Shown piece by piece: positions 23,811-63,093 of a DNA stretch of 64,000 bases. The position numbers were made by a program, and so were the translations under genes. Location: the NCBI RefSeq assembly GCF_024594815.1, contig NZ_JANJOU010000004.1, forward strand, positions 1-64,000, read 5' to 3'. The notes under the pieces are model-generated. The model saw only the letters and a list, made by a program, of their open reading frames with translations. It was not told where the DNA came from and made no database searches. Each line of letters opens with the position of its first letter. The stretch's first letter is position 1. This stretch comes from Roseomonas populi. GTDB taxonomy: Bacteria; Pseudomonadota; Alphaproteobacteria; Acetobacterales; Acetobacteraceae.

Positions 23811-24030
23811 TGGACCCAGGGGGCTCTGCCTCCTGGCTCGGGCTGCCGCGAGACTGACGTGCGGCGAGGCGCTGGCGATCAGGCCCCGGTCCTGCCCTTC
23901 CAGTCGCCTCGGCTCTACCAGCCGAGGCGCACCGTCAGCGAAGCCCAGACCAACCCATAGAAAAAGATGATGGTGAGGGGTCCGGGGAGAGGAGGAATTC
24001 CTTCTTCCTCTCCCTGGCCACAGACCGCCA
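23811..24030 (-). repeat. Dispersed structured element, inverted copy
   Basis: This fills most of the 345-base gap before the molybdenum hydroxylase gene. In the minus direction it carries hairpin A at 23985-24014 (13 pairs including one G-U, GGAA tetraloop), linker B with CATCTTTTTCTATGGG, and hairpin C near 23920-23950 (GCCTCGGC pairs with GCCGAGGC). A separate gene-end hairpin, CCAGGGGGC-TCT-GCCTCCTGG, is at 23816-23836, 20 bases after the glycosyltransferase stop. GGGCTGCCGCG of module D follows at 23840. Confidence 0.75.
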
Positions 24031-45861: not shown

Positions 45862-45955
45862 TTTCGGGAGGCGGAGCCTCCCGAGCCCATCGCCAACTCA
45901 TCATGCTTCGAACGGGCCGGAGAGAGGGAGAACTCCCTCCTCTCCCCGGGACATC
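45862..45955 (+). repeat. Partial dispersed element with gene-end hairpin
   Basis: Two hairpins lie between the porin and the convergent eipB gene. CGGGAGGC-GGA-GCCTCCCG is at 45865-45883 (eight perfect pairs). Module A, GGAGAGAGGGAG with CTCCCTCCTCTCC, is at 45919-45945. No linker B or hairpin C is present. Both probably end transcription of the porin gene and eipB. Confidence 0.6.
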
Positions 45956-45958
45956 CCG

Positions 45959-46822
45959 TCAGCACCCGCCGGGAAGGGCTTCCAGCGTCTCCAGCTTCCC
46001 GTTCACCGCGAACTCGCCGAAATCCATGTTCAGCTCGTCCGCCACGCCGTTCGCGTAGTAGCGCAGGCCCACCTCATAGTCGGGGGAGGAGGCGCCGCCG
46101 CCGTTGTTGTCCTTGCCGAAGAAGGCGATCCGCATGCGGCCACTCTCCTGGTTCGCCAGCAGGGGGAAGCGAGGGTTGGCCTCCGCCTCCTTGCGCCAGG
46201 GCGAGAGGACCGTGGTGCTGTCCTGGGAGCCGTCGTCGCTCGTGCCGTCCATCAGCGGGACGTTGAGGATCTTCTGGCCGCTGCGGGCCGCCTCAATGGC
46301 GCGGATCGTATGGGCCATGGGCAGGAGGGTGCCGGGGGGCAGGGCTTCCTGCGAGGGGCGGGGCTGGTCGTACCTCGCGGTCCCGGAGCCGTCGGGCTGC
46401 AGGGTGGCCTCGCCGGTGATGCGGTTGCTGACCGCGCCCGCCGTCATCTGGGTCAGCGAGTAGCGCAGCCGGCGGCCGTCCTTGCTCTCCCAGGTGGAAT
46501 AGTCGGAGGCGGTCTCGACCGTCTGGCCGTCGCGGTCCTGCATCCGCATGGTCAGGCGCTGGCGGCTGGCCCAGCCATCGCAGGCGTCCAGCACCTCGAA
46601 GAGCATCACGCCCTCGGCGCGGGCGATGTCGGAATTGTCCCGGGAGCGGTCGAAGGTCAGGCGGTAGGCGGCGCGGTGGGCCGCCATGGCCTCCGCGCCC
46701 GGCATGACGGCAGGGGCTGCGCCGGCGGCCGGGGTGGCGGCGGGCTGGGCGGGCGCCGGGCCCGCGAGGACCAGGGCCGCGCCCAGCATGGCGGTGGAGG
46801 CGAGAAGGGAGCGCAGGCGCAT
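45959..46822 (-). CDS. eipB: EipB family cell-envelope protein (DUF1849)
   Basis: A 287-residue periplasmic protein. ATG at 46822 gives a Sec signal (LLASTAMLGAALVLAGPAPA). The DUF1849 core has HRAAYRLTFDRSRDNSDIA, DACDGWASRQRLTM and a late GVADELNMDFGEF. Two cysteines, in DACDG and at the very end (PGGC), match the conserved disulfide of EipB, a beta-spiral protein needed for envelope integrity in Brucella. It is on the aspS strand, 28 bases downstream, so cotranscription is likely. Confidence 0.9.
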   Translation of the reverse strand: MRLRSLLASTAMLGAALVLAGPAPAQPAATPAAGAAPAVMPGAEAMAAHRAAYRLTFDRSRDNSDIARAEGVMLFEVLDACDGWASRQRLTMRMQDRDGQTVETASDYSTWESKDGRRLRYSLTQMTAGAVSNRITGEATLQPDGSGTARYDQPRPSQEALPPGTLLPMAHTIRAIEAARSGQKILNVPLMDGTSDDGSQDSTTVLSPWRKEAEANPRFPLLANQESGRMRIAFFGKDNNGGGASSPDYEVGLRYYANGVADELNMDFGEFAVNGKLETLEALPGGC

Positions 46823-48778: not shown

Positions 48779-49010
48779 GTGGCCCCAGGAGCGAGAAGGA
48801 ATTCTCCCTCCTGGACCTCCCCCATCTTTTTCTATCGGGCTGCCGCGGAAGGCTTCGCTGGGGGTGCGCCTGAGATCGATGACCGCAGGCGACTGACATG
48901 GAGGCCTGGGCTGATGCGGTGTCGAGACGCCTGCGGCGCCGCCCTTCCGTCATCCTAATCCGCGGCAGCCCGATGCAGATCCAGGTGCCCTGGGGCTCCT
49001 GGCGGGGGGT
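48779..49010 (+). repeat. Dispersed structured intergenic element (best forward copy)
   Basis: This lies in the 367-base gap between aspS and yqgE, both on the minus strand. Hairpin A is at 48785-48814: 13 pairs with one C-C mismatch and a GGAA tetraloop. Linker B has CATCTTTTTCTATCGGGCTG at 48823-48842. Hairpin C is weaker (CCTG with CAGG). Module D has TCATCCTAATCCGCGGCAGC from about 48949. The element starts GGCCCCAGG and ends near CCTGGGGC, imperfect terminal inverted repeats. Copy 1 near 0.53 kb matches it along most of its length. Confidence 0.78.
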
Positions 49011-51489: not shown

Positions 51490-51700
51490 ACCGGAGTCCA
51501 GGAGGCTCCGCCCCTAGGACCCCCGCCAGGAGCCACGGGGGACCTGGACCTGCATCGGGCTGACCCGGAGCTGATCGGAGACGGGGTCTCCGGTGAAGGG
51601 CCGCATCCGGCCGCTATAGTCGCCTCGGGTTATCGGCCCGAGGCACCGCATCGAGCGGGCCCGGGGAGAGGAAGAGTCCCTTCTCTCCCCGGGACAGACC
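51490..51700 (-). repeat. Dispersed structured element, inverted copy
   Basis: Between the SDR gene and a convergent thioesterase gene. A decayed gene-end hairpin is at 51498-51518. Module D (minus strand) is near 51525-51565 (GACCTGCATCGGGCTG matches the copy at 48.8 kb). Hairpin C near 51622-51645 pairs GCCTCGGG with CCCGAGGC. Hairpin A is at 51660-51693 (CCCGGGGAGAG with CTCTCCCCGGG). This is the second copy in minus orientation. Confidence 0.72.
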
Positions 51701-57959: not shown

Positions 57960-59117
57960 ATGCCCCGCACGATCCTCTGGCTCACCCTCGGCGCCTTCGC
58001 CGTGGGAACCGGCACCTTCTCCATCGCGGGGCTTCTGCCCGTCATCGCCGCGGATCTCGAGGTTTCCGTCCCCGCCGCGGGCCATCTCTCCATGGCCTTC
58101 GCGCTGGCCTATGCCGTCGCTTCCCCCGTGCTGGCCGCGGCCACGGCCGCCATGGAGCGGCGCCGGACGCTGGTGCTGGCGATGGCGGTCTATGCCCTGG
58201 CCTCCGCCGGCTGCGTGCTGGTGCCGGGCTATGCGGGGCTGATGGGCCTGCGCGTCCTGGCGGCGCTGGCCGCCGCCCTTTTCACCCCCATGGCGGGCGC
58301 CTGCGCCGTCGCCCTCGTCGAGCCCCATCACCGCGGCCGCGCCCTGGCGCTGGTGATCGGGGGCATGACCCTCTCCACCGTGCTCGGCGCCCCCATGGGC
58401 ACGCTGATCGGCGAGTATCTGGGCTGGCGGGCTACCTTCCTCGTCGTGGGCGCGCTGGGCCTCCTCTCCGCCCTCGGCGCCCTGGCCTTCCTGCCCCGCC
58501 TGCCCGGCAGCCGGGAGGCCGGGATCGGGGAGCGCCTGGCCCTCGTCACGCGCCCGGCGGTCGCCACGCTGCTGGTGCAGACCGTGGTCGTCTTCACCGG
58601 CGCCTTCACCCTCTTCTCCTACCTCGCGCCTTTCGTGCGCGGCACGCTCGGCTTCGTCGGCACGGGCACGGCGCTGGCGCTGCTGCTCTCCGGCCTGGGC
58701 GGGCTTCTCGGCGTCTCCCTCGGCGGCTGGGCGGCGGACCGGCAGGACCCCCGCCGCTTCCTCATCCTCTCCAACGCCGTGCTGGGCTGCGCCCTCGCCG
58801 GGATTTCCCTCTGCGTGGAATGCTTCACGCCCGGCGTGGCCGTGCCGACCGTGCTCGCCCTCCTTGTCGTCTGGGGCGCCTCCGGCTGGTGCTTCCCGGC
58901 CGTGCAGCAGGCCCGCCTCGTCGCCCTCTCCCCCGCCCTTGCTCCCGTGCTCCTCTCCCTCAATGCCTCCGCCACTTATGTCGGCACCTCCCTCGGTGCC
59001 CTGTTCGGTGGGCTGGTGATCGGGGCGGGCGGGCTGCAGGAGATCGGGCTGGTGGCGGGCGGAATCGTCGGGATCGGGGCGGCGATGGTCTGGGGAATGC
59101 GGGTGCGCGTGGCTTGA
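57960..59117 (+). CDS. MFS transporter, sugar-efflux/AraJ type
   Basis: A 385-residue transporter with 12 hydrophobic segments. The start region (LTLGAFAVGTGTFSIAGLLP), the loop after segment 2, and AALFTPMAGACAVALVEP are as in AraJ/YdhP-like efflux proteins. It is divergent from the ArsR-type gene and starts 12 bases after operator candidate 2, so it is probably repressed by that protein. The substrate is unknown. It is followed by a repeat element. Confidence 0.9.
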   Translation: MPRTILWLTLGAFAVGTGTFSIAGLLPVIAADLEVSVPAAGHLSMAFALAYAVASPVLAAATAAMERRRTLVLAMAVYALASAGCVLVPGYAGLMGLRVLAALAAALFTPMAGACAVALVEPHHRGRALALVIGGMTLSTVLGAPMGTLIGEYLGWRATFLVVGALGLLSALGALAFLPRLPGSREAGIGERLALVTRPAVATLLVQTVVVFTGAFTLFSYLAPFVRGTLGFVGTGTALALLLSGLGGLLGVSLGGWAADRQDPRRFLILSNAVLGCALAGISLCVECFTPGVAVPTVLALLVVWGASGWCFPAVQQARLVALSPALAPVLLSLNASATYVGTSLGALFGGLVIGAGGLQEIGLVAGGIVGIGAAMVWGMRVRVA

Positions 59118-59120
59118 AGC

Positions 59121-59343
59121 CGGCCAGGGAGAGGGAGAAGGAATTCTCCCTCTCCCCGGACCCCTCACCCACATCTTTTTCTTCGGGCTGCCGCGGAATG
59201 CGGGGCTCTTGGTGCGCCTCGGATCGATGACCCGAGGCGCGGGACATGGATCCCCGGGACCAGCTCGAAGAAAAAGAGGATGGGGTCCAGGTGAAGAACT
59301 CCTTCTTCCCCTGGCGGTGGGTGCGGGAGGCAGAGCCTCCCGG
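59121..59343 (+). repeat. Dispersed structured element, composite copy
   Basis: This fills the gap between the MFS gene and the convergent Lrp gene. Hairpin A is at 59127-59156 (13 perfect pairs, GGAA tetraloop). Linker B has ACATCTTTTTCTTCGGGCTG near 59171-59190. Hairpin C is perfect: GCGCCTCGG (59214-59222) with CCGAGGCGC (59232-59240). A second, inverted module B then A follows (GAAGAAAAAGAGGATGGGG, then CCTTCTTCCC), then the gene-end hairpin CGGGAGGC-AGA-GCCTCCCG at 59324-59342. It looks like two elements joined head to head. Confidence 0.8.
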
Positions 59344-59345
59344 AG

Positions 59346-59834
59346 TTACCCCCGCCGCAGCCCCGAGAGCGGCAGGCGGCCCGATTCCTTGAGCCGTTCG
59401 AGGACGATGGAGGACCGCACGCGCGCCACGCTCTCGTGCGGTAGGAGCACGTCGTTCACCAGGGCGGAGAGATCCTTCAGGTCGCCCACCACGGCCTTCA
59501 GGAGGTAGTCGGCGTCGCCTGTCATGGCGTAGGCCTCCTGCACCTCCTCCAGCCGGGCGACCAGATCGCGGAAGCGCTGGGCGTTGTCCCGGCTGTGGGT
59601 GGCGAGGGTGACCTGCACGAAGACGAGGAGGCGCAGGCCCAGGGGTTCCGCCGCCAGTTCCGCCCGGTAGCCGCGGATGATGCCCGCCGCTTCCAGCGCC
59701 GTGCGGCGGCGGGAGCATTGGGAGGGGGAGAGGCCGGCGCGCTCGCCCAACTGCTGGTTGGTCAGGCGCCCATCCTCCTGCAACGCCGCGAGGAGGCGGA
59801 GGTCGATGGCGTCGAGTTCGACGGCTTCGTGCAT
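59346..59834 (-). CDS. Lrp/AsnC family transcriptional regulator
   Basis: A 162-residue regulator. N-terminal HTH: LDAIDLRLLAALQEDGRLTNQQLGER and SQCSRRRTALEAAGIIRGY, in parts. C-terminal RAM effector domain (FVQVTLATHSRDNAQRF, VQEAYAMTGDADYLLKAVV). Such proteins respond to amino acids. It is divergent from the HPPD gene, so it probably controls tyrosine catabolism from the shared gap; palindromes lie there. Confidence 0.92.
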   Translation of the reverse strand: MHEAVELDAIDLRLLAALQEDGRLTNQQLGERAGLSPSQCSRRRTALEAAGIIRGYRAELAAEPLGLRLLVFVQVTLATHSRDNAQRFRDLVARLEEVQEAYAMTGDADYLLKAVVGDLKDLSALVNDVLLPHESVARVRSSIVLERLKESGRLPLSGLRRG

Positions 59835-59950: not shown

Positions 59951-61057
59951 ATGGGTCCTTTCCCGCATGACGCGCCGCGCGCCGCGATCACGGATCACAA
60001 CCCGGCCGGCACGGACGGCTTTGCCTTCGTCGAATACGCGAGCCCGGAGCCGGAGAAGCTGCACGCGCTGTTCGAGCAGATGGGCTTCAAGGCGGTGGCG
60101 AAGCACCGCACGAAGAAGAGCACCCTGTATCGCCAGGGCGACATCAACTACCTGCTGACGGAGGAGCCCGGCTCCCACGCGCAGGGGTTCACGAAGGACC
60201 ATGGGCCCTGCGTGCCCTCCATGGGCTTCCGGGTGGTGGATGCCCAGCACGCCTTCGACCACGCGGTGAAGAACGGCGCGGAGCCGGCCACCGAGGGCAA
60301 GACGATGGACGTGCCGGCCATCAAGGGCATCGGCGGGTCCTACCTCTACTTCATCGACCAGTACGGCGAGGGCCGGTCCTGCTACGACGCCGAGTTCATG
60401 TGGTTGGGCGAGCGCGATCCCTGGCCGGTGGGCGCGGGCCTCTATTACATAGACCACCTGACGCACAACGTGTTCCGCGGCCGGATGGACTACTGGTACG
60501 ATTTCTACAACCGCATCTTCAACTTCCGGCAGATCCGCTACTTCGACATCAAGGGCGAGTACACCGGGCTGTTCTCCCGCGCGCTGACCTCCCCCGACGG
60601 GCGCATCCGCATCCCGCTGAACGAGAGCGCGGATGACGAGAGCCAGATCGAGGAGTACCTGCGCGAGTACAAGGGCGAGGGCATCCAGCACGTCGCCTGC
60701 GGCTGCGACGACATCTACGGCACGATCGAGGGCCTGCGCGACGCCGGGCTGAACTTCATGCCCGCCCCGCCGGACACCTATTACGATCGCGTGGACGCCC
60801 GCCTGCCCGGCCATGGCGAGGATCTCGTGCGGCTGAAGAAGAACGGCATCCTCGTGGATGGCGAGGGCGTGGTGGAGGACCGCAAGGCACGGCTGCTGCT
60901 GCAGATCTTCTCCGCCAACGTCATCGGGCCGGTGTTCTTCGAGTTCATCGAGCGCAAGGGCGATGACGGCTTCGGCGAGGGCAACTTCCGCGCCCTTTTC
61001 GAGAGCATCGAGGAGGACCAGGTGCGCCGCGGCGTGATCGGCAACAAGGCGGCCTGA
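59951..61057 (+). CDS. hppD: 4-Hydroxyphenylpyruvate dioxygenase
   Basis: A 368-residue Fe(II) enzyme that converts 4-hydroxyphenylpyruvate to homogentisate in tyrosine degradation. Iron ligands lie in IDHLTHNVFRG, IQHVACGCDDI and VFFEFIERKG. Further features: DIKGEYTGLFSRALTSPDG and the late GDDGFGEGNFRALFESIE. ATG with GAGGAGG eight bases upstream. No hmgA or maiA is adjacent. The FAH-family gene at 39.8 kb is not close enough to be in one operon. Confidence 0.96.
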   Translation: MGPFPHDAPRAAITDHNPAGTDGFAFVEYASPEPEKLHALFEQMGFKAVAKHRTKKSTLYRQGDINYLLTEEPGSHAQGFTKDHGPCVPSMGFRVVDAQHAFDHAVKNGAEPATEGKTMDVPAIKGIGGSYLYFIDQYGEGRSCYDAEFMWLGERDPWPVGAGLYYIDHLTHNVFRGRMDYWYDFYNRIFNFRQIRYFDIKGEYTGLFSRALTSPDGRIRIPLNESADDESQIEEYLREYKGEGIQHVACGCDDIYGTIEGLRDAGLNFMPAPPDTYYDRVDARLPGHGEDLVRLKKNGILVDGEGVVEDRKARLLLQIFSANVIGPVFFEFIERKGDDGFGEGNFRALFESIEEDQVRRGVIGNKAA

Positions 61058-62112: not shown

Positions 62113-63093
62113 ATGGGGCGTCTTGTCGATGGCGAGTGGCACGACCAGTGGTACGACACCAAGGCGACGGATGGGCGGTTCGTCCGCAAGGACAGCGCCT
62201 TCCGCAACTGGGTCACCGCTGATGGCAGCCCCGGCCCGAGCGGGGAGGGTGGCTTTCCCGCGGAGCCCGGGCGGTATCACCTCTATGTCTCGCTCGCCTG
62301 CCCCTGGGCACATCGGGCGCTGATCCTGCGCGCGCGCAAGGGGCTGGAGGGGATGATCGGCCTCTCCGTCGTCCACTGGCGGATGCGGGAGAATGGCTGG
62401 ACCTTCGAGGACGGGCCGGGCGTGATCCCGGACACGGTGAACCACGCGCGCTTCCTGCATCAGGTCTACACGGTGGCTGACCCGCGCTACACCGGGCGCG
62501 TGACGGTGCCGGTGCTGTGGGACAAGCAGCGCGGCACCATCGTGAACAACGAGTCCGCGGAGATCATCCGCATGCTGGACCACGCCTTCGACGGCGTGGG
62601 CGCCACGCCGGGTGACCACGCGCCGGCCGGGCTGCTGGGCGAGATCGATGCGGTGAACGCCAGCATCTACGACGCGGTGAACAATGGCGTGTACAAGGCC
62701 GGCTTCGCCACGACGCAGCCCGCCTATGAGGAGGCGGCGCGCGCCGTCTTCGCGAAGCTGGACGAGCTGGATGCGCACCTGGCCACACGGCGCTATCTCG
62801 TCGGCAACGTGCTGACGGAGGCCGACATCCGCCTCTTCACCACGCTGGTGCGCTTCGATCTCGTCTACCACGGGCATTTCAAATGTAACCTGCGGCGGAT
62901 CGCGGACTACCCGGCGCTGTTCCCGTACCTGCGCGACCTCTACCAGTCGCCGGGCTTCGGCGAGACCTGCGATTTCCTGCATATGAAGCGGCACTATTAC
63001 GAGAGCCACCCGACGGTGAACCCGACGGGCATCGTGCCGATCGGGCCGGACCAGGACCTCTCGGCGCCGCATGGGCGGGAGGCGCTGGGCTAG
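62113..63093 (+). CDS. Glutathionyl-hydroquinone reductase-like GST
   Basis: A 326-residue protein of the YqjG/ECM4 group. The catalytic Cys is in LACPWAHRALI (C63). Other features: VPVLWDKQRGTIVNNESAEIIRML, YDAVNNGVYKAGFATTQPAYEEA and DIRLFTTLVRFDLVYHGHFKCN, in parts, with the C-terminal His/Tyr-rich YYESHPTVNP. These enzymes reduce glutathionyl-hydroquinones. ATG at 62113 is five bases after the TRAP gene, so they are cotranscribed. Confidence 0.93.
   Translation: MGRLVDGEWHDQWYDTKATDGRFVRKDSAFRNWVTADGSPGPSGEGGFPAEPGRYHLYVSLACPWAHRALILRARKGLEGMIGLSVVHWRMRENGWTFEDGPGVIPDTVNHARFLHQVYTVADPRYTGRVTVPVLWDKQRGTIVNNESAEIIRMLDHAFDGVGATPGDHAPAGLLGEIDAVNASIYDAVNNGVYKAGFATTQPAYEEAARAVFAKLDELDAHLATRRYLVGNVLTEADIRLFTTLVRFDLVYHGHFKCNLRRIADYPALFPYLRDLYQSPGFGETCDFLHMKRHYYESHPTVNPTGIVPIGPDQDLSAPHGREALG

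Follow-up and report, generated by a model that had tools for sequence, protein, structure and literature searches.

A foldback repeat between convergent genes of Roseomonas populi belongs to a high-copy family of inward-facing hairpin pairs

The window studied here is a stretch of 64,000 nucleotides of Roseomonas populi (NCBI RefSeq assembly GCF_024594815.1, contig NZ_JANJOU010000004.1, positions 1 to 64,000 of the forward strand). At 59121-59343 it contains a hairpin-rich unit that occupies the whole gap between the 3' ends of a convergent gene pair, an MFS gene and an Lrp-type gene, with the following features:

57960-59117, + strand: MFS transporter gene, whose 3' end is the left border of the unit (open reading frame; Pfam MFS_1, E 1.9e-44)
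59123-59183, + strand: left half-repeat A-B, inward-facing (nhmmer model AB2)
59127-59156, + strand: hairpin A, with loop GGAA (sequence; fold)
59158-59164, + strand: closing arm GGACCCC, paired with 59282-59288 (fold)
59172-59185, + strand: tag B, of which 59174-59185 is paired with 59266-59277 (folds)
59186-59201, + strand: core C (alignments A1, long class, and A2, short class)
59214-59240, + strand: inner hairpin (fold; stem with compensatory changes)
59264-59316, - strand: right half-repeat A-B, inverted (nhmmer)
59266-59282, - strand: inverted B (sequence; fold)
59282-59288, - strand: closing arm GGGGTCC (fold)
59289-59314, - strand: inverted hairpin A (sequence; fold)
59324-59342, no strand assigned: gene-end hairpin (sequence; fold)
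59346-59834, - strand: Lrp/AsnC regulator gene, convergent, the right border of the unit (open reading frame; Pfam AsnC_trans_reg, E 1.3e-19)

The sequence-only reading of this stretch had described modules A, B and C followed by an inverted B-A pair and a gene-end hairpin, and the exact coordinates, the sequence and the fold confirmed that order, with the inner hairpin lying between core C and the inverted B. Hairpins similar to the gene-end hairpin were found at the ends of many copies (up to 75 of 89 rows viewed). The whole stretch was predicted to fold at -133.6 kcal/mol, compared with a mean of -101.7 (sd 5.6) for dinucleotide-shuffled sequences (z -5.7), and none of 200 shuffles folded as well. 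In this fold, 12 of the 14 bases of B pair with the inverted B and the closing arms GGACCCC and GGGGTCC pair with each other, so that what look like two copies form the arms of a single structure. The window repeat is a single folded unit rather than a pair of elements inserted next to each other. It belongs to a short class of units: the alignments place a complement of C in most units of the long class, giving these a central stem through B and C, whereas the window unit has none. The fold z of the long-class unit L014 was -11.0.

When the R. populi genome was searched with a 261-base query spanning the unit, 40 of 149 candidates were scored and yielded 52 matches. For a census, a 65-nt profile of hairpin A plus B was run on 2.34 Mb of DNA, consisting of the window, four further contigs of the same genome (G000) and parts of the congeners G001, G006, G012 and G013. 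The profile found 276 A-B halves, not all of them independent copies since G001 and G012 are represented by orthologous stretches; none lay in four 20-kb segments taken from G013 between 3.8 and 5.0 Mb. Hairpin A was perfect over 12 bp in 163 of 270 halves, the other 6 of the 276 having no scorable A hairpin. Counting inverted pairs and their spacing, we identified 32 A-B/A-B pairs in the 2.34 Mb, all 32 of them inward-facing, with gaps of 80-86 nt in 16 cases, 115-141 nt in 15 and 55 nt in one; in any other orientation, no A-B neighbours lay less than 1111 nt apart. An initial 0.76 Mb contained 23 A-B pairs in head-to-head orientation with a gap of at most 250 nt, in comparison with 6.1 expected under random intergenic placement, and the largest count reached in 1000 draws was 14. 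It is thus extremely improbable that two independent insertions of one element landed head to head by chance. While the window site is of the kind of gap that the units prefer, the excess over random placement, the purely inward orientation and the concentration of 31 of 32 pairs in two spacing classes, with nothing else closer than 1.1 kb, lead us to reject a chance juxtaposition.

Most of the remaining A-B halves have a second kind of half beside them, a double hairpin called DT. A profile of DT found 157 copies, and the neighbor pairs within 260 nt comprised 76 DT/A-B, 74 A-B/DT and 32 A-B/A-B, inward in 182 of 182 cases. Because 48 segments downstream of A-B halves served as the training set for DT, those 48 are inward by construction and the real test of orientation lies in the other 109 of the 157 hits and in the absence of any other arrangement. 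The 182 pairs consist of 364 distinct modules, and no group of more than two modules was found within 260 nt. In total, 150 of 157 DT and 214 of 276 A-B halves were paired and 62 of the 276 had no detected partner; the share of A-B halves in doublets, which among REPINs outnumber singlets, is 64 of 276 if A-B/A-B pairs are considered and 214 of 276 if A-B/DT pairs are counted too. The claim that the locus consists of two copies of one dispersed element is not supported: the inward doublet is the normal form, and most apparent singlets are paired with the different half, DT. A pattern scan of species genomes gave at least 106 loci; in these 106, the neighbors were inward in 102 of 102 cases, all of distinct sequence; the 80 of these loci that were listed by title all came from Roseomonas or Pararoseomonas. 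The other modules identified in the window are:

528-586, + strand: A-B half (nhmmer)
23958-24019, - strand: A-B half (nhmmer)
48784-48836, + strand: A-B half, with a C-complement box and hairpins downstream (nhmmer; sequence)
51499-51690, no strand assigned: inward-facing pair of DT (51499-51534) and A-B (51658-51690) (nhmmer)

The window also contains, at 45905-45961, a solitary hairpin that resembles A and has neither B nor a partner, possibly a remnant. In three loci, L039, L030 and L131, an extra hairpin was located between those of the unit itself, as if one hairpin could be inserted into another. On contig C5 of G000, just left of position 60009, a long G run adjoins a unit and may be an assembly or sequencing artefact at a strong secondary structure.

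An A-B/A-B query matched 12 of 15 genomes of the genus; with 40 candidates scored per genome, seven (G000, G001, G002, G006, G010, G012 and G013) had 64-88 matches each, five had one to six and three (G003, G008 and G011) had none, and the sole match in each of G004 and G007 resembles, by eye, coding sequence. In a sample of 120 genomes of the family, 45 matched an A-B/DT query, including G000, G010 and G011 of the genus itself, and among the matches listed outside the genus all were at the DT end only. Five of ten loci in other genera (L061, L064, L067, L069 and L070) had inward DT/DT pairs with gaps of 88-174 nt, centered on long near-perfect palindromes whose sequence differed between genomes; in one of the five, the sequence includes a stretch of Ns. 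Among 72,556 plasmid records, a set from which near-genome records may have been excluded, one, a plasmid of Roseomonas mucosa, matched in part, over 42% of the query at 78% identity. The window had no Rfam match at the gathering score, and a search with four loci gave only 16 sub-threshold matches, to microRNA families and one mycobacterial sRNA; membership of a known RNA family was therefore rejected at the Rfam threshold. Among the best-ranked results in the open-licence literature, we found no description of such a repeat in Roseomonas.

The units are strongly associated with gene ends. Gene calls came from a simple script based on codon usage rather than from a published gene finder; relative to these calls, 244 units were distributed as 118 in convergent, 113 in tandem and 10 in divergent gaps, with 3 at contig edges left unclassed and none inside genes. 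Gaps of at least 60 nt, used for comparison, numbered 219 convergent, 594 tandem and 321 divergent. The units mostly occupy gaps into which one or both neighboring genes end, and favor convergent gaps most. For the 314 of 433 halves toward which the adjacent gene points, the median distance from the stop codon to the outer edge is 19 nt. Single units in tandem gaps had A on the side of the upstream stop in 45 cases and on the side of the downstream start in 53, indicating that the orientation of the unit is free. On a larger scale, a pattern of the A hairpin gave 104 exact hits in G013 against none in a reversed control, and 100 of the 104 were located. On contig C1, 95 of these 100 sites fall in 698000-2554000, about one third of the 5.466-Mb replicon, in a cluster that ends just before dnaA (2.562 Mb); of the remaining listed sites, one precedes the cluster and four are at 3.2-3.9 Mb.

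Comparison of orthologous junctions revealed a turnover of units. At 258 kept junctions between G000 and G013, a unit was present in both genomes at 23, only in G013 at 11, only in G000 at 4 and in neither at 220. Sequence inspection covered the 16 of 18 polymorphic junctions with a size difference of at most 450 nt. In the five clearest filled/empty cases, gaps of 9, 10, 30, 46 and 58 nt correspond to gaps of 258, 297, 266, 274 and 327 nt, and the difference is about the length of one unit. At the junction at window position 63093, the gap is 9 nt in G000, 7 nt in G006 and 258 nt in G013, which, from these three genomes, is most simply a gain in G013. Many of the "absent" sites retain a hairpin or a remnant (for example G000:C43:75646), so decay or deletion also occurs, and the four sites filled only in G000 are not simple empty sites in G013. 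In the pair G001 and G012, which are 88-95% identical by block, all 18 units at 85 kept junctions are common to both, suggesting that movement is slow or has stopped there.

Shared junctions indicate replacement as well. The ortholog outscored the best paralog from the same genome at 5 of 23 shared junctions of G000 and G013, where the comparison was made on the plus strand only and the 18 other cases include two ties, one of which has no hit at all, and at 8 of 18 shared junctions of G001 and G012. Orientation differed at 3 of 23 shared junctions in G000/G013, at none of 18 in G001/G012 and at 1 of 3 in G000/G006. The few wins of the ortholog together with the switches of orientation suggest that copies are replaced or converted at favored sites; gene conversion between copies would give the same pattern of paralogs more similar than orthologs. 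At the window site itself, G006 has kept the order MFS gene, unit, Lrp gene, with the right half lost or never present, and in G013 the MFS and Lrp genes lie 1.3 Mb apart, the MFS gene being followed by a DT/A-B unit. Orthologous junctions can thus hold a unit, none, or one of another type or orientation. By eye, no target duplication was seen at the clearest filled/empty junctions, whose flanks are about 10% diverged. The consensus of the end motifs was likewise seen by eye (up to 75 of 89 rows viewed), and of the 161 single-A-B units that have a right hairpin, 22 had outer end motifs on both sides. Mobility of the unit is supported by its presence and absence at these junctions.

The units may tentatively be seen as functional two-way 3'-end RNA structures, acting as a terminator or a block to 3' exonucleases, that are selected and copied by gene conversion rather than transposition, a reading that is compatible with the units being mobile. 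It is consistent with the preference for convergent and tandem gaps over the nearly free divergent ones, with the short distance to stop codons, and with the recurrence of a similar shape with another sequence in other genera. Two-sided, compensatory changes were also present at 15 of 50 pairs in the consensus fold of the short class and at 18 of 50 in that of the long class. On the other hand, some orthologous junctions do without a unit, and in B the T-run is well separated from hairpin A, an arrangement unlike that of a standard intrinsic terminator. Across 270 A hairpins, no excess of G.T over A.C mismatches, as a sign of an RNA strand, was observed (51 G.T compared with 72 A.C).

The matched changes have a second potential source. 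Template switching at imperfect palindromes during replication can correct palindromes, and near-perfect hairpins could arise passively in this way, keeping their shape without selection on RNA. We consider this rather unlikely as the explanation of the family, though the distribution of the changes agrees with it. In alignment A2 of the short class, the ratio of double changes to breaks was 31:23 in three adjacent-arm hairpins and 2:16 in the long-range stem (P = 8e-4), or 31:27 in the hairpins when an initially omitted two-pair helix is included (P = 0.002); in alignment A1 of the long class, the corresponding ratios were 61:32 and 4:22 (P = 5e-6). These are hand counts from fold tables, and their cells are not independent. 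In both classes, then, the double changes are concentrated where the arms of a hairpin adjoin rather than in the long-range stem, and strand bias is absent from hairpin A, both as expected from template switching; the inward-only pairing, the fixed spacing and the copy number are left unexplained by it. As the covariation fits a correction of palindromes at the DNA level as well as selection on RNA, it is no proof of an RNA role.

G000 and G013 differ by extensive shuffling of gene order, and one of the junctions coincides exactly with the window unit: between window positions 59117 and 59329 the matching position in G013 jumps from 2.17 Mb for the left flank to 0.87 Mb for the right flank. 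We considered it improbable that the units acted as hot spots of recombination and so brought about the shuffling. Across 281 mapped adjacencies, those with a unit were more often broken in G013 than those without (10 of 36 vs. 16 of 245, P = 4e-4), also among gaps of at least 60 nt (10 of 36 vs. 13 of 122, P = 0.016), and the position of the window unit at a breakpoint points the same way. The effect is absent within the convergent gaps (7 of 17 vs. 9 of 25, P = 0.76), and in tandem gaps (3 of 19 vs. 5 of 171, P = 0.03) it is reduced to P = 0.34 when gaps of at least 60 nt are considered. Units and breaks both prefer convergent gaps; the hot-spot explanation was rejected, and we do not claim the units as the cause of the breaks.

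The general build of the units resembles that of several known repeat families. The BIMEs of Escherichia coli are palindromic repeats that form groups of more than two alternating REPs and bind gyrase, IHF or Pol I. The Roseomonas units are likewise palindromic repeats at the 3' ends of transcription units, a location attributed to BIMEs in the title of a reference listed in PMC12306157, but they differ in that no group exceeds two modules. REPINs, according to the part of PMC3116915 that treats them, are doublets of REPs that form hairpins and are thought to depend on RAYTs. The sequence-only reading had compared the locus to a REPIN or BIME doublet of two opposite copies, and the resemblance holds for an inverted doublet of hairpin-bearing repeats at fixed spacing, more frequent than by chance, intergenic, of high copy number and present or absent at orthologous junctions. 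The Roseomonas units differ from REPINs in having larger halves of two interchangeable kinds and in lacking both a match to the Y1/RAYT family in the genus and the GTAG tag.

The suggested membership of the REPINs did not survive these comparisons. The Y1 transposase domain PF01797 was found neither in the R. populi genome nor in any of 15 genus genomes including it (mostly drafts), whereas the control was positive in 5 of 14. The GTAG tag was found within -10 to +14 of the module start in 7 of 273 halves and the CGTC tag in 10 of 273, three of the 276 halves near contig ends having been left out. Nor were doublets better conserved than singlets, as they are in REPINs: the mean pairwise identity, computed from at most 300 sampled pairs per group, was 0.814 and 0.803 for doublets and 0.827 for singlets in G013, and 0.793 and 0.773 compared with 0.798 in the contigs of G000 other than the window. 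A true REPIN moved by a RAYT would share the inverted doublet, the intergenic location and the high copy number, but we regard it as very unlikely and reject it on the transposase, the tags and the conservation.

Among REPs tagged with GTAG or CGTC, the relevant section of PMC3733652 reports that head-to-head (HH) dimers predominate, both as homo- and heterodimers, and that dimers are preferred between convergent and unidirectional ORFs. All of these traits recur in Roseomonas, where the units differ by a hairpin A of mostly 12 or more pairs, a branched central stem and the absence of the tags. The same section describes CGTC repeats as missing from the Acetobacteraceae. In the excerpted parts of a 2025 survey (PMC12306157), many REPs are given for Lichenicola cladoniae, with figures that differ between the text and a table; as this is a species of the Acetobacteraceae, hairpin repeats are not unknown in that family. 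Roseomonas itself is now placed under Roseomonadaceae at NCBI. The bacterial MITEs NEMIS, ERIC and CIR are described, in the portion of PMC2229807 that covers them, as small, non-coding, highly paired and mostly intergenic, with filled and empty sites. The Roseomonas units share all of these properties but are G+C-rich, with weak inverted ends and no target duplication seen.

Taken together, these results show a high-copy family of large foldback repeats, present in several genomes of the genus, to which the window repeat belongs as a single unit. A unit consists of two inward-facing, hairpin-bearing halves around a central stem with a hairpin of its own; two kinds of half are in use, A-B and DT, and in the window unit both are A-B. 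The explanation we favor, with somewhat better than even confidence, is that this family spreads to gene ends as non-autonomous elements, in the manner of REPINs or MITEs, by a route other than Y1/RAYT. The symmetric pair would be the part recognized during spread, a putative enzyme or recombination route would drive it, a Y1/RAYT transposase being an unlikely agent, and units would persist at gene ends because insertion there is least harmful, where the two-way array of hairpins may perhaps be useful as a 3'-end structure for both transcripts. Against the units being mobile stand the lack of a detected transposase and of a visible target duplication, and the presence of 10 of 244 units in divergent gaps. 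A broader formulation, possible though clearly less probable than the favored one, is a modular head-to-head system of Roseomonas-type bacteria and their relatives, in which the unrelated A-B and DT halves always face inward (as A-B/A-B and A-B/DT, and elsewhere as DT/DT around palindromes) and spread to gene ends without a RAYT.

The repeat is genuine and non-random, and its head-to-head build is of a generally known kind; it stands apart in that the usual transposase was not found and that two kinds of half are mixed. The family is present in a group from which one survey, in the section cited above, reports a main class of REPs to be missing (PMC3733652). The same build with no RAYT found in the genus would mean either that another agent spreads the units or that it is the shape as such that is retained, and the interchangeable halves provide a natural test of which part is recognized.
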